32,587 nucleotides of DNA from a virus. Where the stretch lies: the IMG/VR virus record IMGVR_UViG_3300030419_001042, positions 1 through 32,587 of that record, one strand, 5' to 3'. Every line of letters starts with the position of its first letter. The stretch's first letter is position 1. The notes under the pieces are model-generated. The model searched no databases. It saw only the letters and a list, made by a program, of their open reading frames with translations, and had not been told where the DNA came from. Of the stretch, positions 9,396-21,553 are shown in pieces. The translations under genes were made by a program, and so were the position numbers.

Positions 9396-12300
9396 ATGAA
9401 ATATAAGACTACTCAAAAAGATCGCTATGGGAATATGAGATCTTTGGAAATAGATACTGGTGAAAAGAATATGGAAGTTCCTCCTATGACTTCTATGATT
9501 CCTCAGTATGAAGCTGTTGGAGGATTAGCTGAGAATCATCCAGGAGAACCAAAGGGATCTGATACTGTACCGGCTTGGCTAACTCCTGGAGAATTTGTTG
9601 TTAATAAAGAAGCAGTAGATATATACGGTCCACAGATTAAAAAGATGAATGATGTAGGTAGAGAGATTCAAGATGGTAATATAAGTCCTAGTGAAGCTAG
9701 TCAAATTCCTATGTATGCAAGCACTGGTAAAGCAGCTAAAGAATACCCTGCAGAAAAAAAGTTAGCAAATCAAATAGAAATTTATGAACATTTAAAAAGT
9801 AGAGGATTATCTGATAAAGCTGTTGCTGGATTAATGGCACAGATTCAACATGAATCTGCTGGTACTTTTGATCATCAATGGCAAGAGCATAGTGGTGGCG
9901 GAGGTCATGGCTTATTTCAAATGGACCCAAATCCAGGTGGTTGGTTAGGTCCTTACAAACAGTGGCTTAGAAAAAAATATATGGATGATATAAATAAAAT
10001 GGAATTAGAACCTGTTGTTCCAGGTGGACCTGTTCTTAATCCTACAATGCAATTTGATTCACCTCAAAATCAATTAGACTTTGCAATAGATTTATATACT
10101 AATCCAAATGCTATTCCACATCCAACTGATCCTGGTCATTATTTTATAGGGGATCAGAATGCAGCAAGTATAAGATCTGTTCTTGGAAATCCAGATGTAG
10201 ATCTTACAGAGATGTCAAATATATTAGTAGATACTTGGATTAATCCTAAAGAAAAAATTAAGTATCCTGAGAATAGAATAGATAGACAAGAAGATACTCA
10301 AGCTATGTGGGATTTAATTCAAAGCGGTGCGTTTATAGGTGCTCAAGATCCTTCTGCAGTACCAACTTGGATAACAAGAGCCCAACAGATATGGCAAGAT
10401 ATGGATAAACCAAAGGTTGAAATACCAGAGGTCGATCCCAGTGCTAGTAGTTTCCTTAGTCGTTGGTTTCCTGGTCACAGCGGTAAAAAAAGTATTGTAC
10501 CTAAATTAGATTCTTCAGATCCATATGATTTTAAAAATAAAGGTGGTCCTATTTATGCATACTCAGGAGCAGGTGTTCAAGGACCAGGATTAGGAACTTG
10601 GGAAGAAGAGATGCTAAAAAACTTACAGCATGATTATGGTAATCCATGGAATCCTTTTGATAATATTTATTCTGTAGGTATGGATTATGGTCATAGACCA
10701 ATACCAGATCCAGCAACAACAGAGGAATCATGGTACAGTCAACTTAAAAATGAATTTAGTCCAGCTCCTTCTTTAGAAAATATAGAAGAGACAACAACTA
10801 CAGATGATAATCAAGTTTACGTACCAGGATGGAAAAAAGCTATTGCTGAAGCAGGTCAGTTTGATGACGCAAATGTAAATACAATAGAAGATATGGAAGA
10901 TGTAGCTGGAGATAAATTAAGGGATTTATATTTTAGTACTCGAGATCCTGAAAAAGAAAGGCTAGAAAGATTACAAGATGGTATGATTGAAGTAGAGACT
11001 CTTCCACCATTAGAAGCACCACCAACTCCAAGAGAAATGGGTTATGGAAACTTAGAAAGAAAGAAGTGGTTTGAGTTTGATCCATACACTGATATACCAG
11101 GTGGTGGTAATGTAAAAGAATTAGAAGACCAATACCTGGAAGCTGTACAAACAGTTGCTAGTTCTAATAGCAGCGATCCAGATTATCAAAGCAAAATGGC
11201 ATGGTTAAATAAAGTTACTGCTCAGCTAGAACAAGCAAAAAGTAATCAGAATATTATAAGAGAATGGGATGCTTTTAAAGCAGGTAATGAGAAGACAGCT
11301 AAGTTTGAAAAAGAAAGTGAAAAGAATTTAAGTGAAATTGAAAAGACAAAGAAATCAATTGAAGAATTAAAAAATCGTATAGCTGAAAGTTCAGATCAAC
11401 TTCTTACTGAAAAATTAAATAAACAACTTATACAACAAGAAATAAAATTAAATGAGTTAGAATATAAAAATGTTTCTGAACATTCTAACCCAGAAAATTA
11501 TAAGAAATCAACAGTAGAAAAACTTAAAGAAAGATTAGATCCAAAAGAAGAAACATTTATGAGTGGTAAGTATAAGTATTCTGATGCAGAAGATTATGTT
11601 GAAGCACAAAATAATGCACAGCAAAAGAACATAGTAAGTGCATCAGAAAAAGTAGCTCCTAAAGTAGCGCTTGAAATTGAAAGTAAACTTAATACACAAG
11701 CAGGGAAAAAAGCTATAGCAAATGCAGAAAGTAAATCTGAGACTGATCCTGAGAAAACTAAAGCTAGAAAGATGTTTGACTTTTTGTTTGGAGATCTTAT
11801 AGACCAAGGTGAAATAGGTAGAGCGATTGCTGTATACTTAGGATCTAGAGCTATGGGTTATGATCATGGCAGTAGTTTTGGTTATGTAGCTAGACAGTAT
11901 CTTGCAAGAGTTGATAAAAAGAATGCTATGGTTAATAAGTTCTTATTAGAAAATGCTGGTAAATACACTCCGGCTTCTGTGAAAAAGTTTAAGAAGACAG
12001 GTAATCCTGCAGATCTTATACCAATAGGTTCAACTCCTTATGCTACTGGTGTAAGAAAGAAATACTATAGCACTAATCCAAAACTTAGAGGTGGGCAGAT
12101 GGCTTATGAGTTTAAAGTAAAAAATGCTCAAGGTAATATAGCAACCTTCTGGTCTTTTGATAGTACAGGTAGAGATGATAGCTTGCGATTAAGAGATGGA
12201 TGGCAAGAGACAGATCCTAATTTAATTGATGATAAAGAAATATCACATATTGAAAAGATCATAAGAGATTTTCAATCAGGTGATGGTAAGAAAACTACTG

Positions 12301-12953
12301 GTTCTTCTGTCAAAGGTAATTTAAAAACTATCTATTGGGAGACTGGTGATTCTACTCCAGGTATGTCGCCAGCTGCAGCAGCAGATGAAATTGCAGGATG
12401 GTTAACTGATAGAGGTATTAAGCCTGGTAAGATAGGACAAGCTATTCATAATGCTTACGCTGCAATGATTGCAAAGAATAAAAAGCTTTATAATGAAGAT
12501 CCAAAGACTACTGTTAGGCATGAGTCTTTAATTCCTTTCTTAGAAGATGAGTTAATTAAAATGCGTCTTGAAGATATGCGATATTTAGATGCTAATAATA
12601 AGATGCATCTGATTCCTTCTCCAGTAAAAGCAAAGGTTAATGGTGAAGAAAGAGTTATGTCTAATGATAAACTTAAAGAAATCCAAAATAGAGTTGAAGA
12701 ATTCTATGGACCTGTACAAGCTACTGATTTATTCTGGGCAGAAATTAGTAAGTCATGGGAACAGCATGCTTCTGATGAGTATCAAGAAAAATACCAAAAG
12801 AAAGGTGGTAAGAAAGTAACTTGGAAAGAAGTGTTTATGGAAATGGCTAAGGAAAAGAAGTGGTCTGAGTATACGCCATTTGGTTTGTTTGCATTATCAG
12901 CAATAGAGCAGCAGATTGAAGCAGCATCTAATGAAAGCTATCAACCACAATAG
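9396..12953 (+). CDS. Large virion protein with tail-lysozyme-like domain
   Basis: An 1185-residue protein. Residues about 54-74 carry GSDTVPAWLTPGEFVVNKEA, a motif common in phage tape-measure and ejection proteins. Residues about 120-190 look like a phage tail lysozyme: a helix leading to GLMAQIQHESAGTFD, then GGGGHGLFQMDP, with Glu153 as candidate catalytic acid. This would cut peptidoglycan locally during genome entry. A long coiled coil lies at about 620-700 (E, K, L, I, N-rich). The C-terminal third is mixed helical sequence of unknown role. Start ATG 9396 follows TAGGAGTTTAGT. In T7 the murein hydrolase is in gp16; here it is in a different protein, so the ejection proteins are modular. 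Confidence 0.7.
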   Translation: MKYKTTQKDRYGNMRSLEIDTGEKNMEVPPMTSMIPQYEAVGGLAENHPGEPKGSDTVPAWLTPGEFVVNKEAVDIYGPQIKKMNDVGREIQDGNISPSEASQIPMYASTGKAAKEYPAEKKLANQIEIYEHLKSRGLSDKAVAGLMAQIQHESAGTFDHQWQEHSGGGGHGLFQMDPNPGGWLGPYKQWLRKKYMDDINKMELEPVVPGGPVLNPTMQFDSPQNQLDFAIDLYTNPNAIPHPTDPGHYFIGDQNAASIRSVLGNPDVDLTEMSNILVDTWINPKEKIKYPENRIDRQEDTQAMWDLIQSGAFIGAQDPSAVPTWITRAQQIWQDMDKPKVEIPEVDPSASSFLSRWFPGHSGKKSIVPKLDSSDPYDFKNKGGPIYAYSGAGVQGPGLGTWEEEMLKNLQHDYGNPWNPFDNIYSVGMDYGHRPIPDPATTEESWYSQLKNEFSPAPSLENIEETTTTDDNQVYVPGWKKAIAEAGQFDDANVNTIEDMEDVAGDKLRDLYFSTRDPEKERLERLQDGMIEVETLPPLEAPPTPREMGYGNLERKKWFEFDPYTDIPGGGNVKELEDQYLEAVQTVASSNSSDPDYQSKMAWLNKVTAQLEQAKSNQNIIREWDAFKAGNEKTAKFEKESEKNLSEIEKTKKSIEELKNRIAESSDQLLTEKLNKQLIQQEIKLNELEYKNVSEHSNPENYKKSTVEKLKERLDPKEETFMSGKYKYSDAEDYVEAQNNAQQKNIVSASEKVAPKVALEIESKLNTQAGKKAIANAESKSETDPEKTKARKMFDFLFGDLIDQGEIGRAIAVYLGSRAMGYDHGSSFGYVARQYLARVDKKNAMVNKFLLENAGKYTPASVKKFKKTGNPADLIPIGSTPYATGVRKKYYSTNPKLRGGQMAYEFKVKNAQGNIATFWSFDSTGRDDSLRLRDGWQETDPNLIDDKEISHIEKIIRDFQSGDGKKTTGSSVKGNLKTIYWETGDSTPGMSPAAAADEIAGWLTDRGIKPGKIGQAIHNAYAAMIAKNKKLYNEDPKTTVRHESLIPFLEDELIKMRLEDMRYLDANNKMHLIPSPVKAKVNGEERVMSNDKLKEIQNRVEEFYGPVQATDLFWAEISKSWEQHASDEYQEKYQKKGGKKVTWKEVFMEMAKEKKWSEYTPFGLFALSAIEQQIEAASNESYQPQ

Positions 12954-12962
12954 GAGTTTAAT

Positions 12963-15900
12963 ATGGACTTACCTAGAATAGATATACCTACTCTTCAAGT
13001 ACCTAAGCCTATTGCTGGAAGTGGTGGTCATAGGTTTATTGATGGTGATACATTAGTAAATGAAGAAGGTAACTTACTTAGAATAGAAGGTTTAAGTGCA
13101 CCAGAGATTAGACGTCTTATGGATTCTGGTTATCTTAAACCTGGTACTCCTGGTGGATTAGAAGCTACTAAACAAATTGAAGAACTTGCAAATCAATTTG
13201 GATATAATAATGTAAAGTATCTTACAAATGAAGATGGTTCTCCTAAGTTAGATGTTCATGGTCGACAGCTTGTTAGATTAAGTGATGAATATGGCAGAGA
13301 CTTTACAGAAACACTTACCCGTTATGGTATTAATAAGTTAAGTAGATATAGTTCTGAAGAAGAAATAGATAAGTATCGATGGGGATTAGCACAAAAATCT
13401 AATGCCAATCTTTTGGATAAACCTTTAAATAACTTTGAAAAGTCAGCTCTTATTTTAGATGATGCTGTAAAGTCAGAGCAATGGTACGATACTGAATTTG
13501 CAAAAGCTGCATTGAATGAAACCGAATTATCTAGGCTAACTGCAGAAAGACAACCAGGAGAATCACTAGCTGCATTTTCTTGGAGAATGAAAGAGGCTGC
13601 TAAGTATACAGGAGCAAGAGTACAACAAAGACATAAAGATAGAACTCTTGATAACCAAGCACTTCATCCTTGGGCTGAAGGATTTGATATAGGATGGAAT
13701 GGTGTTATTGAATCTTTGTATGGTGCTGCTGAATTACTTGGTGAAAAGACTGGATTTAATTGGTTAGAAAATCTAGGGGAAGCAGGTATTAAAAGACAAA
13801 GAGAATATCTTTTGACTAAGCCTGAATTAAAATTAAATATACTTAAGCCTGTATTAGATGATGATGGAAAAGTTATAGCTAATGAGTGGGATGTAGATGG
13901 AATAGGGGAATTCTTTGAATATACTGGTAATATGATGGCAGTATCTATTCCTTATATGGGAGTCACAGCAGCAGGTACTATGCTAGCACCAGCAACAGGC
14001 GGTACTTCTTTAGCAGCTGCTACAGGAATTGGAGCTATGTCAGGAGTAGGTTTAAGTATGGTTGCTCCAGTTGCTATGTATACTGGAATGACTTGGAATG
14101 ATATGGAAGGAGAAAATAAAAGTGCTATACTAGCAGCAGCTGGTGGTATTACTATGTCAGTCCTTGATAGATTAGGTATTAGAGCATTGATGGGAACAAT
14201 GACTGGTACTTTATTAAGTCCTAAGTATCGTAAAGAAATGGTTAAAGCATATATTACAAAACATGGTGGCACTGAGTCTGCTGCAAAAGCGGCTATTGCT
14301 CAGATGTCTAGAATGGAAGCAGCTAAGTTAGTAGGTCATGCAGCTAAAGTTGCTAAAGACCAATTAACTTACGGAAATATTTTAAGATCTTTTGCTGCTA
14401 GAGCTGGTATTGGATTTGGTATAGAGTCTATGACAGAAACAGGACAGGAACTTGCACAATATTTAGCAGCAACTTATGGAAGTGATAAGCCTTTTGATAC
14501 AGTAGAACTTCATAATAGATTAGTCAATGCTTTTGTAGCAGGTGGTACATTAGGTTCTGCATTCTCAGTACCTGGAACTGCTTATGATGTAGGGGCTTGG
14601 ACAGATGTTCATGTTAGAAAATCACCAGCAGAAGATAAAAGAAAATCTAAAGAAAGTAAAATGCAATTAGAAGAAGAAGCACACTTGCATAGTTACTGGG
14701 AAGAAGGAGATACTCTTCCTGAAGGAGTAAGAGTTGGTGACATAAAACAAAAGTATGTACATGGTAAACCTAAATCAATTCAAGATATTTATACTGATCT
14801 TAAAAAAGGTGCGCAGCATAGAGCAGATTCTAAAGCTGCAGAAATACAAACTCTTCAATTACAATTATCTGATCCTCAACTTCCTACTGAACAAAGAACT
14901 GCTATAATAGCAAGGATTAAAGCATTAAGAGAAGCCACAAATTTACAAACAAAAAAAGCTGCAGGTAGAAAGCAGCTTAAAGATAGAGAAGTTTGGCAGA
15001 AAATAAAAGATGCTGCAGCCGCTTTCCCTGTATTATGGAGAGGTGCTACTCGCCATTACTTTACAGATGCAAATGAAAAGTCTCCTGAAGTTAGACACTA
15101 TTCATCAGGTCTAGGTGCTTTCTTACATCCTGTATATTCAGGAGAAACTCTAGAAAATTTTAAACATAATACATTAACGTTCTTTAAAAATGTTTTAGGG
15201 CAAGTTGAGATAGCACCCGGTGATAAAAGAGATTTCAGTGCTGCAGCTGTGGCAGCAGCTCTTGGTTATAAAACTCTTGATACATTAAAAATATCTAAAG
15301 ATGTTTATGAATTTTATCAAAATCTTTTAGTCAGAGATAGCAAAGGAAATATTGTAGATAGTATACTTGCTGATGATATTGATTGGGATACTATGCCTAA
15401 ACATATAGTAGCAAAGAAAGACTTCTATTATAACCTTGCAAAAAGATTTGATAAGTTTAGTAAACAATTATTTGATGATCAAAAAAATTCAAGGATACAT
15501 TATTATAATCCAGATGGTACAGTAGATACAACTAGTGATACTGGTAAGACATTTACTATGGGTGAAATAAAAAACTATATTGGAAGATATAGATCTATTG
15601 ATAAAGTTAAAATTGAAAAAGATAAAGAAGGATTTATAAAAGATCTTATAGAACATAAAAAATATACAAGAGCTGAAGCTACAAAATTAGCAAATGCTAT
15701 ACTTGATAATGATGAACTTATTGATGAGAATAGTTTATTCGAAGTTGGTAAAGGTGTTCATATACCTTCTCAGCATAGAAATAGAAAATTAAATATGGCT
15801 GATGATCCTGTGTTAAGTAAATGGATGGAGCAAGATTTATTTATAAATATTTCTAATGCTGCTAAGTCAGCAGCCAGATATATTACTTATCAAAGATTTA

Positions 15901-17312
15901 TAGGTGATGATGGTGAGATTCTTAATGAAGGAATAGAGAGAGCAATAGAAAGCGGATCTATAAGTAGAGAAGAAGGAAATGCTCATGCTGCTTTTATACA
16001 AGATTATCTTGATGGTGAATCAGGTAACTATAAGAAAATACAAAATCCAAGGATTGCTAACTTACAAAAGAACTTATTAGTATGGACAACACTTGCTGGA
16101 TTACCTATGGCTACTATTTCTTCTCTTGTAGAATACATGATGATCTCAAGAGCACTAAGTCCTGAACAAATTAATAATGTTATAAAAGCTTCTGCTAAAG
16201 AATTTGCAGGTGCAATATGGGAAACCATGACAACTGCTACACCAAATATGAAGTTAGCTACGTCAGTTCAAGGACAGCTAGCTAAAGAAAAAAGGCAAGC
16301 TCGTTTAAAAAGATTAGGTTATTTTACTTGGGATACAGGTGCAGCACAAACTACAGGTGCTACTGAAAATACGTTTGCTTCAAGATATTTATTAGATAAA
16401 TATTTTAGAATAATTCTCTTACAACAGTGGACAGATATGACACGTAATATAAGGGGTGCACAAGCAGATGATTTTATTATGCATCACTTAAGTATTATAA
16501 GAGATCAAAGAACAAAGGGTACTTTATATGATAATGAAGTACAAGAATCAGAAGAGCATTTAAGAAACTTAGGAATTAATATAGAAGAGCTTTTAGAAAT
16601 AGATAGTATAAATGTTAAAAAACCTGATAATAAATCATGGGAAGAATTTCTACTTGAACAAAGACAAGCAGGTAGTAGGCTTGATAGAATATTAGCAGAT
16701 GCTGAATACAATTTTATTAATGAAGCTGTTGCATTACCTGGTACTGCAAACAGACCATTGTTCTATCAGAATCCACACTTAGCATTGTTCACACAGTTCC
16801 AAGGTTTTATTGCAACCTTTACTGCTAATCATATTCCTAGAATGTGGGGTGATTATGTAAAGAGGGGTACTCCTTCAATGAAGTATAATGCTTTTGCTAT
16901 CATAACATTAATGATTGCAATGGGATTTGTATCTCAATATCTAAAAGATTTATTAAAGTATGGAGGGAGTAGTCCTTACTTAGATTCAATGGAAAAACTA
17001 CAAAGAGGTTTAGGTGCATCAGGTATGTTAGGTGTAGCTGAGAGACCACTAAACTTTTTCTTTCCTATTTATGAAACATCTTCTAGTAATATGATAGAAG
17101 AAATATTTCATGGAGTAAGCGGAGAAGCCGCAGCTATATCTAATTTATCTAAGGCTGCAACAGGTGCTACTCAAATAATTGAAGGAGCTTTAACAGATAA
17201 AAGTATGGAGCCTGGACTTTATAAAGGATTTAAGACAGCGCCATTAACTGGACCATTCAATCAGTTTAATAGGTGGGCTGCTTCAAGACTTTCAGGAGTG
17301 TTTGAAAACTAA
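12963..17312 (+). CDS. Giant internal virion protein with N-terminal SNase-like nuclease domain
   Basis: A 1449-residue protein. Residues about 22-130 match the staphylococcal nuclease fold in order: FIDGDT (Asp27, Asp29), LLRIEG (Arg40), SAPE (Glu48), then DVHGRQLVRL (Arg101) and a GRDFTETLTRYGINKL helix. These correspond to SNase Asp19/Asp21, Arg35, Glu43 and Arg87; SNase Asp40 is replaced by Ser45. A hydrophobic Gly/Ala-rich block lies at about 325-425, and coiled-coil sequence at about 610-680. The C-terminal part has FTQFQGFIATFTANHIPRMW and a hydrophobic helix, of the type seen at the end of large podovirus internal proteins. Size and position match T7 gp16 (1318 aa). I infer an ejected protein that brings a nuclease into the cell or envelope. 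Confidence 0.65.
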   Translation: MDLPRIDIPTLQVPKPIAGSGGHRFIDGDTLVNEEGNLLRIEGLSAPEIRRLMDSGYLKPGTPGGLEATKQIEELANQFGYNNVKYLTNEDGSPKLDVHGRQLVRLSDEYGRDFTETLTRYGINKLSRYSSEEEIDKYRWGLAQKSNANLLDKPLNNFEKSALILDDAVKSEQWYDTEFAKAALNETELSRLTAERQPGESLAAFSWRMKEAAKYTGARVQQRHKDRTLDNQALHPWAEGFDIGWNGVIESLYGAAELLGEKTGFNWLENLGEAGIKRQREYLLTKPELKLNILKPVLDDDGKVIANEWDVDGIGEFFEYTGNMMAVSIPYMGVTAAGTMLAPATGGTSLAAATGIGAMSGVGLSMVAPVAMYTGMTWNDMEGENKSAILAAAGGITMSVLDRLGIRALMGTMTGTLLSPKYRKEMVKAYITKHGGTESAAKAAIAQMSRMEAAKLVGHAAKVAKDQLTYGNILRSFAARAGIGFGIESMTETGQELAQYLAATYGSDKPFDTVELHNRLVNAFVAGGTLGSAFSVPGTAYDVGAWTDVHVRKSPAEDKRKSKESKMQLEEEAHLHSYWEEGDTLPEGVRVGDIKQKYVHGKPKSIQDIYTDLKKGAQHRADSKAAEIQTLQLQLSDPQLPTEQRTAIIARIKALREATNLQTKKAAGRKQLKDREVWQKIKDAAAAFPVLWRGATRHYFTDANEKSPEVRHYSSGLGAFLHPVYSGETLENFKHNTLTFFKNVLGQVEIAPGDKRDFSAAAVAAALGYKTLDTLKISKDVYEFYQNLLVRDSKGNIVDSILADDIDWDTMPKHIVAKKDFYYNLAKRFDKFSKQLFDDQKNSRIHYYNPDGTVDTTSDTGKTFTMGEIKNYIGRYRSIDKVKIEKDKEGFIKDLIEHKKYTRAEATKLANAILDNDELIDENSLFEVGKGVHIPSQHRNRKLNMADDPVLSKWMEQDLFINISNAAKSAARYITYQRFIGDDGEILNEGIERAIESGSISREEGNAHAAFIQDYLDGESGNYKKIQNPRIANLQKNLLVWTTLAGLPMATISSLVEYMMISRALSPEQINNVIKASAKEFAGAIWETMTTATPNMKLATSVQGQLAKEKRQARLKRLGYFTWDTGAAQTTGATENTFASRYLLDKYFRIILLQQWTDMTRNIRGAQADDFIMHHLSIIRDQRTKGTLYDNEVQESEEHLRNLGINIEELLEIDSINVKKPDNKSWEEFLLEQRQAGSRLDRILADAEYNFINEAVALPGTANRPLFYQNPHLALFTQFQGFIATFTANHIPRMWGDYVKRGTPSMKYNAFAIITLMIAMGFVSQYLKDLLKYGGSSPYLDSMEKLQRGLGASGMLGVAERPLNFFFPIYETSSSNMIEEIFHGVSGEAAAISNLSKAATGATQIIEGALTDKSMEPGLYKGFKTAPLTGPFNQFNRWAASRLSGVFEN

Positions 17313-17323
17313 GGAGAATATAA

Positions 17324-20300
17324 ATGGTACAAACCAATTTACCAAGCGGAGTAGTAGGTGCAGACATCACACCGTCCGCTAAATTACAAGAGCGTAAAGA
17401 GTTAGCATCTCTTGCAAAAGGTGTAAACATTTTAACTCAGTCTGAGCTTGCAGCAAGATTAGAAAGGGATCGAGCAGCAGGAGCAGGTGCTTTTAGAGAG
17501 GAAGCTCTTCAACAAGAAGCTGATCAGATGAGAGCCTTAGAAGAAATAACTGCAGCTTTTCCTAATCAATCTGGGGCAGCACGTGAAGAATTTAAATATG
17601 CAGATGAACTATCAACAGCACCTACTGAAGCAGAAGAAGTAGATGCTACTCCTCAACTTAGTCAAGCACAGCTTATAGAAGAACTAAGTAAACCTGTTTT
17701 TACTATGCAAATAGATGAAACTGATGCACGAAATAATGAAAAATTACAAGAACTAAAACTACATAATAGATTGTTAACTAAAGCTGAAGCACTTTCTAAA
17801 AATTTAGGTGCGCCAGGTATGTTAAGTTACGAGTCGCTTCTTAATCTTTCTAAAGATCTAGTAGCCTCAGGACAAGCAGGCAAACCACTTCTTGATGCTT
17901 TAACTAGAGTACATTTAGCAGCTAAAAAAATGCAACAAGGTATAAGTCTTAAAGGTAGTATGACAAAAGCACAAAGAAAAATGTTTTTGCAAACAGGAAG
18001 TTGGAAGTTATCAGCACATGCAGCAGAAGATACTTCTCAAGGTGTAAGTGATATTATAGCTTCAGCAGATCCTGCTAAAAGAATGGAAGGAATAACTTAT
18101 AAAGAAACTACTCAAGCTGATGCTCCTATACGTTCAAGTAATCCAACTCTTAATACTAATATGACTAATATTGTATTAGATGTTTTAGAAGCAGGCTACT
18201 TAAATAACAATGGACAAATTGAAATTGATCCAGAACTTTTTAGTATTATGGCAATGAATGCTGAAGAATCTTTTATTACTTCTTTATATGCTACAGATCA
18301 AACAGAATCATTAGCAGATATAGTTATTGATGAAGATGCAGATACTAAGGTACCTAGACCTAAGAAGAATGATCCTAAAGCTGAACAAGATATTAAAGTA
18401 GCAGTTATTAGAAAGACAGATGGTCTTGAAAAAGTTGGTAGAAATATTTATAGAGAATATAAAAGAATGAAAGCTGTAAGTTTAGGTCAAGAACCTGATG
18501 CTTATCTGGCAGATATAGATGATATAAATAAAGAAGTCTTTATTCATTTAGGATCTAGAGCTAAAGAGTTTTATTATAAAGCTGTTTCAGCGGAAGCCGA
18601 TCCAGAGACTGGACTTTTAAGAAGGCCTAAGGGTGGAGGATTAGAAAAAGATCTTGTAGAGTATATCGTTACTCCTTATGGTAGCTCTGTATTTGAAGAT
18701 ATGTATAGAGTATACTCAGGTTTATTTGAAGCAACTGAAGTTAAGCCTCAACCTCATGCTGTTAAAGGAGGCGTTATTGCAGGTGAAGGTACTCAAATCA
18801 CTAGACGAATGACAACTTGGATGTCAGAATATATTGGTGATACTACTATGGCGTTTAATGCAATGGAAGTTCAGAATGCTATGCCTATAGTTAATGATAG
18901 TAGTAGAAGTTCTCTTAGTGCTATCTTATATATGCAAGCATTAGCAGGTGGAGGAAGAGTTGAACCAATAATAAATAGTGCAACTATGCAACCTATGCAT
19001 GCTAGGCATAATATATATACTGAGCCACAAAATAAAAGAAATTATTATGCAGATATATTTAAAATTGGTAGAAATAAATTTGATGATTTACAAAGTGAAA
19101 AGAGATCTTTACATGAAAGAGTAGACCAACTTAAAAGAGAAAGGCAAGCAGCACTTGGTGCTCAAAGCCAAGCAGAATTAGCTAATGTTCCTTCTGAAGA
19201 AGAGATTAAAATGGCTGAGGCAGTTGCTGAAAATTATAATCCTTCATCTATTCTTAAACTTGAAAGAGAAAAATCTATAAATATAGCAGAAGCAATACAA
19301 AGATATAACGGAGTTAACCATTTAACTTATGCATTACAATTATTAACTGGTAGAATGCATGCACAACAAACTCTTTATAATCCTCAGGCACATCCTATGG
19401 TTAGGAATGTAGTATCAGGTGGGCATGTATATAGCTGGATACCTGGTCAAGGCGGTCAAATAGAAAATGATTTTAAAGTTTTAATGACTGCTAAATTATT
19501 TGAAGATCCTAAAGTTTCTGATGTTTATAATTGGAAAAAAGATAAAGGCTTTCGTATGCCTGAAGAAAAAAGGTTACAAGTATTTAATGAACTTGAAGCT
19601 GAATCTAGAGCTAGACCTAATGAAGGATTATGGAATCAGTATGTAGCATGGGGAAGAGAGCTTATTGCTCTTACACAAAGAGCTGACAAGCCAAGAATTG
19701 CAAATTATTTAGCACAAATTAAAAAGAATGGATTGCAAGGCACTAGTTCTAACCCTATTATGGAACAAGTTAGAGCAGAGTTTTCACAAGATTCTTTAAG
19801 CGAACCTTTAAGAGTTTGGTTATCTGAGCATGAGCAAGAGGCTATTAAACATGCGGATTATCTAATGGCTTTAGCTAAGTATACTGATGCTAGAAAAGCA
19901 GGTAAAACTTTTCATGCAACTCAAGCATTTGAAATTGATGGTAAGACACATGGTCCTTTAACTATGGGTGCACAGTTTGGTAGTGTAGCAATGACCAAGC
20001 GTGGTGATATGATAACTGCAGTACCTCTTATTGACAAGTTAAAAGGTGATGACTTCATGGATCTAAGAGATGCTATGGCTAAGACTATGCTTGATGAATA
20101 CGCTAGACTAGCACAAAGTAATGCTTACAGATCTCAACTTGGTGGTGATAAGACTGATGCTCTAGGTGTGATACTGCGAGAAGCATTGAAAGATAGAGAA
20201 AATATGCTAAAGAAATCACCTATGACTTTAGGATATGGTCAAGTAGTAATGTCTTTAAAGAGGCATATTCAAAAAGTAGTAGATTTAAATCCTAAAATTA

Positions 20301-21553
20301 GAAAGATAGCAGCTGATAATAAATTAAAAGTAAATCAAGTAGTTGATTGGCTACATAATATGATGGTCAATGCTATCTATGCAAATATGGATGGGCATAC
20401 TATTGATACAATGAATACAATTAAACATATAGCTTGGCAATCAGTACTCTTAAATGAGATGCTAACTTTTTATCAGCCTACAGGACTTAAAGTATATTCT
20501 ACTGGTATGGAATACTTTCCAGATAAAAAAGTATCATGGGATTCTAAATCAACTCCTGATGATATGGATGCATTACCTAAAGCTATAACAGACTATAGCT
20601 ATATGGGAAAGGCATCTCCTCAAGCTATAAGAAAGTTTCCAAGTGGTGGAGCTGAGATAGGTGGGTTTACTGTTAGTAGAGTATTAGCTTCTTTAATACA
20701 AGGCTATGATCCTGATATGACACAAGGTGTATTTAATAATGTAAAGTTTACAGGTAAAGATAAGTATGGTAATTATGAATTTAAAACTACTAATTATTGG
20801 AATCAAATTAAAGAAGCCGCTTTTAATAATGGTGCAAGAATAAAAAGAATTAAAGATGGCAAAGAGGTATATGAAGGTAACCCATTTGTTATACAAATTT
20901 ATGATGCTTTCCTAGTAGATCTTGGAAGCTATTCTAAAGTTAAAGAGATTGCAAATAAAATTCATAAAGAAAGTATTATTAATGATGATGCTGCTTATAA
21001 AGTTTTTAATTGGTATGAGCAAGAAGCTAAACCTAAATTAGAAAAACTTAGCACTGATACAAATATGTATGATGTTGAAAAAGATTTTCTTAAGATTTAT
21101 ACTTTATTTACTGGAGAAAAATACCAAGCTAAGTTTGGTAATATTAATCCTTACAAAGAATTAGTTAAGTACCTTAAGAAAAATATAAGAATGGAATGGA
21201 ATAGAGAAGGTACTGAAGTTCAAGTCTGGAATGCCGCTAAAAATAAGATGGTCACTGAAAGAATAAACAAACAAACTTTAAAAGATTGGGATCAAAAAAT
21301 GCATAGCAAAGCATTTAAAACAGCTATCGATATAGAGAAAGAACTTACAACAATTGAAACAAAACCTTTAGATATGTTAAACACTACTGGAAAATTACCT
21401 GGTACAGAAATTGCACGTATATTAAAAGTACTTAATAAACATGCTGGTTTAGAACCACAAATAATAAAAGCTAAAAGCAATGTATCTGCAGGTAAAAAGG
21501 AAGTAAGGAAAGCATTATCTACTGGTGGTCCTTCAAATAATATTGATGCTTAA
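17324..21553 (+). CDS. Giant single-subunit RNA polymerase, likely N4-like virion RNA polymerase
   Basis: A 1409-residue protein at the end of the virion cassette. It contains the catalytic motifs of T7-family polymerases in order: GRMHAQQTLYNPQ (Arg677, compare T7 GRVY...FNPQ), motif A FEIDGKTHGP (Asp872, T7 Asp537), motif B KKSPMTLGYG (Lys963 and Tyr971; T7 Lys631 and Tyr639 in KRSVMTLAYG), and motif C IQIYDAFLVD (Asp1194, T7 Asp812 in IHDSF). Motif A to the motif B lysine is 91 residues here and 94 in T7. The arginine before motif B is one residue out of register. The N-terminal 400 residues are unlike T7. Location among ejection genes, a second T7-like RNAP elsewhere, and the size point to a compact relative of the N4 virion RNAP, co-ejected with DNA. 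Start follows AAGGAGAATATAA. Confidence 0.72.
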   Translation: MVQTNLPSGVVGADITPSAKLQERKELASLAKGVNILTQSELAARLERDRAAGAGAFREEALQQEADQMRALEEITAAFPNQSGAAREEFKYADELSTAPTEAEEVDATPQLSQAQLIEELSKPVFTMQIDETDARNNEKLQELKLHNRLLTKAEALSKNLGAPGMLSYESLLNLSKDLVASGQAGKPLLDALTRVHLAAKKMQQGISLKGSMTKAQRKMFLQTGSWKLSAHAAEDTSQGVSDIIASADPAKRMEGITYKETTQADAPIRSSNPTLNTNMTNIVLDVLEAGYLNNNGQIEIDPELFSIMAMNAEESFITSLYATDQTESLADIVIDEDADTKVPRPKKNDPKAEQDIKVAVIRKTDGLEKVGRNIYREYKRMKAVSLGQEPDAYLADIDDINKEVFIHLGSRAKEFYYKAVSAEADPETGLLRRPKGGGLEKDLVEYIVTPYGSSVFEDMYRVYSGLFEATEVKPQPHAVKGGVIAGEGTQITRRMTTWMSEYIGDTTMAFNAMEVQNAMPIVNDSSRSSLSAILYMQALAGGGRVEPIINSATMQPMHARHNIYTEPQNKRNYYADIFKIGRNKFDDLQSEKRSLHERVDQLKRERQAALGAQSQAELANVPSEEEIKMAEAVAENYNPSSILKLEREKSINIAEAIQRYNGVNHLTYALQLLTGRMHAQQTLYNPQAHPMVRNVVSGGHVYSWIPGQGGQIENDFKVLMTAKLFEDPKVSDVYNWKKDKGFRMPEEKRLQVFNELEAESRARPNEGLWNQYVAWGRELIALTQRADKPRIANYLAQIKKNGLQGTSSNPIMEQVRAEFSQDSLSEPLRVWLSEHEQEAIKHADYLMALAKYTDARKAGKTFHATQAFEIDGKTHGPLTMGAQFGSVAMTKRGDMITAVPLIDKLKGDDFMDLRDAMAKTMLDEYARLAQSNAYRSQLGGDKTDALGVILREALKDRENMLKKSPMTLGYGQVVMSLKRHIQKVVDLNPKIRKIAADNKLKVNQVVDWLHNMMVNAIYANMDGHTIDTMNTIKHIAWQSVLLNEMLTFYQPTGLKVYSTGMEYFPDKKVSWDSKSTPDDMDALPKAITDYSYMGKASPQAIRKFPSGGAEIGGFTVSRVLASLIQGYDPDMTQGVFNNVKFTGKDKYGNYEFKTTNYWNQIKEAAFNNGARIKRIKDGKEVYEGNPFVIQIYDAFLVDLGSYSKVKEIANKIHKESIINDDAAYKVFNWYEQEAKPKLEKLSTDTNMYDVEKDFLKIYTLFTGEKYQAKFGNINPYKELVKYLKKNIRMEWNREGTEVQVWNAAKNKMVTERINKQTLKDWDQKMHSKAFKTAIDIEKELTTIETKPLDMLNTTGKLPGTEIARILKVLNKHAGLEPQIIKAKSNVSAGKKEVRKALSTGGPSNNIDA

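Follow-up and report, generated by a model that had tools for sequence, protein, structure and literature searches.

How can a phage carry a DNA-cutting enzyme beside its own genome? The question is raised by a giant gene in the window, which is the whole stretch of DNA that was analysed, an IMG/VR virus record of 32,587 bases with a podovirus-type genome. The + strand of the window carries structural genes, and the - strand encodes an RNA polymerase, a primase/helicase, an exonuclease, a DNA polymerase, a dCMP deaminase, and a thymidylate synthase; ribonucleotide reductase (RNR), thymidylate synthase, and dCMP deaminase are encoded by the same phage as the giant gene. A preliminary description, made from the sequence, had proposed that the 1449-residue product of this gene (the carrier) begins with a domain resembling staphylococcal nuclease (SNase).

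Table 1 Features of the carrier gene and its neighbours in the window.
Feature	Position	Strand	Basis
Preceding giant protein, 1185 residues, N-terminal Phage_lysozyme2; cassette gene 1	9396..12953	+	PF18013, E 2.6e-9, residues 125-180
Carrier gene, 1449-residue giant virion-type protein	12963..17312	+	ORF with ATG start; phrog_6958 match
Predicted SNase-fold domain, residues ~19-146	13017..13400	+	AlphaFold2 models; match to SNase structure, Z 10.5
D27-G28-D29-T30, equivalent to SNase D19-G20-D21-T22	13041..13052	+	D27 and D29 in 58/58, T30 in 56/58 distinct sequences
R40, equivalent to SNase Arg35	13080..13082	+	58/58 distinct sequences
S45, at the position of SNase Asp40 (Ca2+ ligand)	13095..13097	+	Variable among 58 distinct sequences
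E48, equivalent to SNase Glu43	13104..13106	+	58/58 distinct sequences
R101, equivalent to SNase Arg87	13263..13265	+	58/58; paired by hhalign with the Arg of thermonuclease D-R-Y-x-R
Carrier core, residues ~236-1449, common to LUZ24-like virion proteins	13668..17312	+	Full-length alignment with tf_51, JB8, and BroderSalsa
Following giant protein, 1409 residues; cassette gene 3	17324..21553	+	ORF; no recognised domain

Fold of the N-terminal domain

The assignment of residues ~19-146 of the carrier to the SNase fold, an OB-type barrel with three helices, is confirmed by the predicted structure, a profile-profile match, and residue conservation, although Pfam misses the domain in the window sequence. 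The predicted structure contains strands 24-27, 30-32, and 38-41, helix 65-78, strands 83-86 and 102-107, and helices 114-120 and 132-149, which is the order of strands and helices in SNase. An AlphaFold2 model built from a 10-sequence alignment has a mean pLDDT of 69.8; its best 50 matches in Foldseek are exclusively to staphylococcal nuclease (E from 3.5e-5), and its comparison with the SNase structure gives a Z of 8.5. A second model, of residues 1-420 from a 52-sequence alignment, has block pLDDT values of 63-91 across residues 11-150, and its residues 19-145 match residues 11-136 of the SNase chain with a Z of 10.5 and an rmsd of 3.5 over 117 aligned residues.

The domain shares with staphylococcal nuclease and the thermonucleases (PF00565) the fold, the secondary-structure order, and the positions of D19/D21/T22, R35, E43, and R87. 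By contrast, its connection between E48 and the first helix is longer and contains a GTPGG motif, there is an insert before R101, a serine occupies the position of Asp40, and the domain, rather than forming a free enzyme, makes up the N-terminal part of a giant phage protein. The preliminary description, which a different predicted fold would have contradicted, is borne out in the nature of the domain and, according to the translation of the ORF, in each residue that it had named, including Ser45 as the only changed one. However, it had ended the domain at position 13352, which is too short, because the last helix runs past this point.

The homology is not apparent from the window sequence by itself. 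No SNase was returned when it was searched directly against Pfam, PHROG, and the PDB sequences, so the single sequence is insufficient for recognition; PDB profile searches returned no SNase at a significant E-value, with one giving it only at E 0.76, and PF00565 had no match in four whole phage records. Relatives were therefore collected stepwise from viral contigs, beginning with close ones, continuing down to 34% identity, and then reaching locus L034 and others. The L034 domain (FIDADT...YRLAGVDAPE...FDPLGRE) has PF00565 as its sole Pfam match, with E 0.016, and PF00565 is also the Pfam family most commonly matched in a 20-member alignment of relatives (4/20 members). The best relative scores 16.1 bits against a Pfam gathering cut-off of 21, and the window sequence is not detected. 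We describe this sub-cut-off score as a detection limit, and the domain as a divergent family with the SNase fold that PF00565, in its present form, does not cover.

When the L034 domain was compared with plasmids by tblastn, the matches were mostly to proteins annotated 'thermonuclease family protein', every one of them at a weak E-value. Eight plasmid-borne thermonuclease-family proteins were assembled and aligned independently, and hhalign matches the phage domain to this alignment with a probability of 94.5, an E of 8.4e-8, and a score of 50.8, whereas 100 column-shuffled thermonuclease alignments score at most 18.6. The match pairs D29, R40, E48, and R101 with D, R, E, and R of the thermonucleases. 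Weak matches to glycoside hydrolase, beta-amylase, sorcin, and other proteins were short and inconsistent among relatives and were set aside as chance; a 59-codon frame of Pseudomonas phage Y10 that might have been a SNase segment had E 3 and was dropped.

Occurrence and active site among relatives

Relatives were surveyed with residues ~1240-1360 of the carrier, about 1100 residues from the domain, as the anchor, because this avoids selecting them by the SNase domain itself. The survey yielded 80 loci, 15 of which are cut off on the 5' side. The domain is present in all 65 loci with an intact 5' end: it is fused at the N-terminus in 64, and in one (contig 3300006166_000223) a stop codon sets it apart as a 142-residue ORF. 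By contrast, tf_51, JB8, and BroderSalsa, which are LUZ24-like homologues of the carrier, are without its N-terminal ~230 residues, the SNase domain included. Judging from these genomes, the domain is fixed in the marine podoviruses of a CRP-7-like group and is absent from the LUZ24-like homologues. A KPP25-type homologue (CRPAP1904, 2107 residues) was examined and has no such domain, the apparent alignment being spurious. Matches in Pelagibacter and Bacteroidetes MAG contigs were not taken as evidence of the host, because phage contigs are easily misbinned.

The group includes a cultured member, Roseobacter phage CRP-7. Its gp34 (QBQ72827.1, 1368 residues), annotated as a hypothetical protein, resembles the window in its N-terminal DGDT...R...E...DPYGR domain, in the cassette, and in the order of replication genes, but has Asp, as SNase does, at position 40 of SNase. 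CRP-7, a podovirus, was isolated from Chinese coastal water on an RCA-lineage roseobacter, and the word 'nuclease' is absent from the main text of the paper that describes it (PMC6918029).

Seven of the 127 domain columns are invariant among the 54 distinct sequences of the survey: D27, D29, R40, E48, G64, R101, and G111. Five of them correspond to SNase Asp19, Asp21, Arg35, Glu43, and Arg87, and the chance that all five SNase positions would fall in seven of 127 columns in a random draw is about 8e-8. The same five are invariant in a wider set of 58 distinct domain sequences, so that loss of Arg40, Glu48, and Arg101 in homologues, which the preliminary description had named as evidence against a nuclease, occurs in none of them.

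In SNase, Asp21 and Asp40 are Ca2+ ligands and Arg35, Glu43, and Arg87 are catalytic. The second ligand, Asp40, is not kept in the window protein, and its position varies among relatives (D 30, S 15, E 7, N 4, T 1, Q 1 in the 58 sequences; D 27, S 14, E 7, N 4, T 1, Q 1 in the 54). Every residue found there has a side-chain oxygen that could face Ca2+; the change to serine in the window may reduce Ca2+ affinity. The dN/dS ratio of the domain in close pairs is roughly 0.05-0.34, which corresponds to purifying selection. The pattern of conservation resembles that left by a working enzyme, and from it we infer that the domain is catalytically competent. The presence of the domain in every intact member and the constancy of its active site suggest that a nuclease borne by the particle plays an important part in infection.

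Two loci of the family deserve separate mention. In contig 3300006166_000223 (L005:1440-1868 and L083), a TAA stands where a relative has CAA, and the ORF ends directly after the SNase domain; the core could restart from an ATG that follows the TAA within a few codons. The TAA is either a natural split or a sequencing error. Between L152 and L157, synonymous divergence is 0.88 in the SNase domain and 0.18 in the rest of the giant ORF, a difference suggesting that recombination has swapped the domain between close phages.

The carrier protein and possible roles of the nuclease

Residues 958-1337 of the carrier match phrog_6958, 'virion structural protein', with E 5.4e-18, and this family is matched by 17 of 18 relatives of the carrier. 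The core is homologous over residues ~236-1430 to phrog_6958 and to LUZ24-like tf_51, which is annotated 'phage particle protein'. The carrier is the second of three giant genes, in the order giant-lysozyme, giant-SNase, giant, and a homologue of the third giant protein comes after the carrier in four other loci (L007, L058, L041, and L132). The first position of the cassette is occupied by Phage_lysozyme2 in the window and by a Pesticin-type lysozyme in CRP-7 gp35 (L067:16184-19855); on this comparison, the type of lysozyme is exchangeable there. The third giant protein has no Pfam or PHROGs domain and diverges faster than the carrier. The carrier gene thus belongs to a late cassette that encodes large proteins, a peptidoglycan hydrolase among them, as the genes of podoviral ejection proteins do. 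A PDB sequence search gave no relevant match to solved ejection proteins, and homology to T7 gp16 was not detected. Fusion to a giant virion-type protein, as the preliminary description had it, is well founded; of its term 'ejection-type', the virion family and the three-gene cassette after a lysozyme-bearing protein stand, but ejection itself is not part of this support. Of the roles that it had offered for the nuclease (cutting host nucleic acid, penetrating DNA-containing material, or attacking competing genomes), the present findings favour none over the others.

Ejection proteins of short-tailed phages exit the head and build a channel across the cell envelope. Two kinds of enzymatic domain are known from the ejection proteins of podoviruses: peptidoglycan hydrolases and, in N4-like phages, an RNA polymerase. 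SNases cleave both DNA and RNA and require Ca2+ well above cytoplasmic levels, which is plentiful in seawater and the periplasm. Because Ca2+ is scarce in the cytoplasm, a periplasmic nuclease outside the ejection tunnel would spare the phage DNA inside.

T7 gp16 offers a parallel in architecture: it is a giant ejection-type protein encoded in a late structural cassette, with an enzymatic domain of ~150 residues at its N-terminus. It differs from the carrier, a putative ejection protein, in having a peptidoglycan hydrolase instead of a nuclease. In gp16, the transglycosylase is formed by residues 1-156, which come to lie around the gp15 tunnel in the periplasm, whereas the remainder of the protein crosses the inner membrane; enzymatic domains are known to move between ejection proteins (PMC8954989). 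In phage SU10, five ejection proteins are released, one of which has transglycosylase activity (PMC9509320).

The explanation that we prefer, tentatively, is that the carrier is an ejection protein and bears the domain as an accessory enzyme, a Ca2+-dependent endonuclease of the SNase type that is competent for catalysis and probably acts in the periplasm. Within this explanation, computation supports the fold, the invariant active site, the fusion, the fixation in these phages, and the assignment of the core to a virion family; the nuclease activity, its location, and its target we infer. By analogy with T7 gp14-gp16, the three giant proteins would leave the head on infection and form a conduit across the envelope. 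The N-terminal domain of the second protein would lie on the periplasmic side and external to the DNA tunnel, as the transglycosylase domain of gp16 does, so that the first giant protein would bring a muramidase and the second a nuclease, both at their N-termini. Ca2+ from seawater and the periplasm would activate the nuclease, and the low Ca2+ of the cytoplasm would keep it inactive; the DNA of the phage, inside the tunnel and then in the cytoplasm, would be spared. Nucleic acids on the cell surface or within the periplasm may serve as substrate, for example stray DNA, DNA of aborted or superinfecting phages, or extracellular DNA around the cell. The steps from ejection to periplasmic placement to substrate are reasoned one from another, with the placement taken from T7. 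Against the explanation count the serine at the Asp40 position, the lack of detectable homology to T7 gp16 or any solved ejection protein, and the danger that a Ca2+-dependent nuclease enclosed in the head would be expected to pose to the phage's own genome, seawater being rich in Ca2+. It is doubtful, though conceivable, that a marine podovirus group has built a Ca2+-gated nuclease into its genome-ejection machine, with compartment and tunnel geometry letting the phage destroy foreign nucleic acid at the envelope, rival phage genomes included, while its own DNA is unharmed.

The alternatives are each unlikely, and are given here by falling likelihood. The same active nuclease could enter the cytoplasm with the ejection protein early in infection and cut RNA or the chromosome of the host, with host shutdown and a supply of nucleotides to the phage as the result. 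The invariant active site, the activity of SNases on both DNA and RNA, and the nucleotide metabolism genes and exonuclease of the window would fit such a role. However, the Ca2+ need of SNases lies well above cytoplasmic levels, the entering phage DNA would be exposed, and a virion holds few copies of an ejection protein. Action within the particle, at assembly or ejection, is a somewhat poorer candidate: the domain would trim or nick packaged DNA, clear nucleic acid trapped in the procapsid, or act on the portal-side genome end. The carrier family is a virion component, and the LUZ24-like phage tf has defined nicks in its packaged DNA (PMC3517423); but tf_51 is without the domain, which therefore does not make the nicks of tf, an unspecific nuclease in a full head would be hazardous, and no link to packaging genes was seen.

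Least probable is that the domain is a folded module for binding nucleic acid or protein, such as for gripping DNA or docking to the tunnel, with catalysis unneeded. OB-folds and degenerate SNase domains, for example the Tudor-SN repeats, often only bind, and Asp40 is replaced in half of the family. Degenerate SNase domains lose their catalytic residues, however, whereas here the equivalents of D21, R35, E43, and R87 are kept in every distinct sequence while nearly all other columns drift.

Nuclease domains in other phage proteins

Both the SNase fold and ejection proteins that bear an enzymatic domain are already known. The open-licence literature searched yielded no phage virion or ejection protein with a SNase or thermonuclease domain, and nucleases go unmentioned in a 2022 review of ejection proteins; within that literature, a giant virion protein on which a SNase domain is fixed throughout a phage group is apparently new. 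SNase domains do occur in other phage genomes, including SPbeta YokF, Staphylococcus phage nucleases, and the Methylophilales phage Melnitz, but those inspected are separate small genes, unlike the window domain inside a giant virion protein.

Three further observations were made in the genomes and families compared. The annotation of CRP-7 splits the B12-dependent ribonucleotide reductase (L067:7381-9999) into two parts separated by another ORF, possibly because of an intron or other insertion. In Melnitz-3 (Methylophilales phage; marine Kyanoviridae), a free SNase-like gene (L163:1495-1908) lies inside the baseplate gene cluster and may encode another virion-associated nuclease. Thermonucleases match positions ~1100-1247 of the 2317-position profile of phrog_8809, a giant phage protein family of unknown function, with E 5e-29, and this family is possibly a second giant phage protein with a SNase domain.
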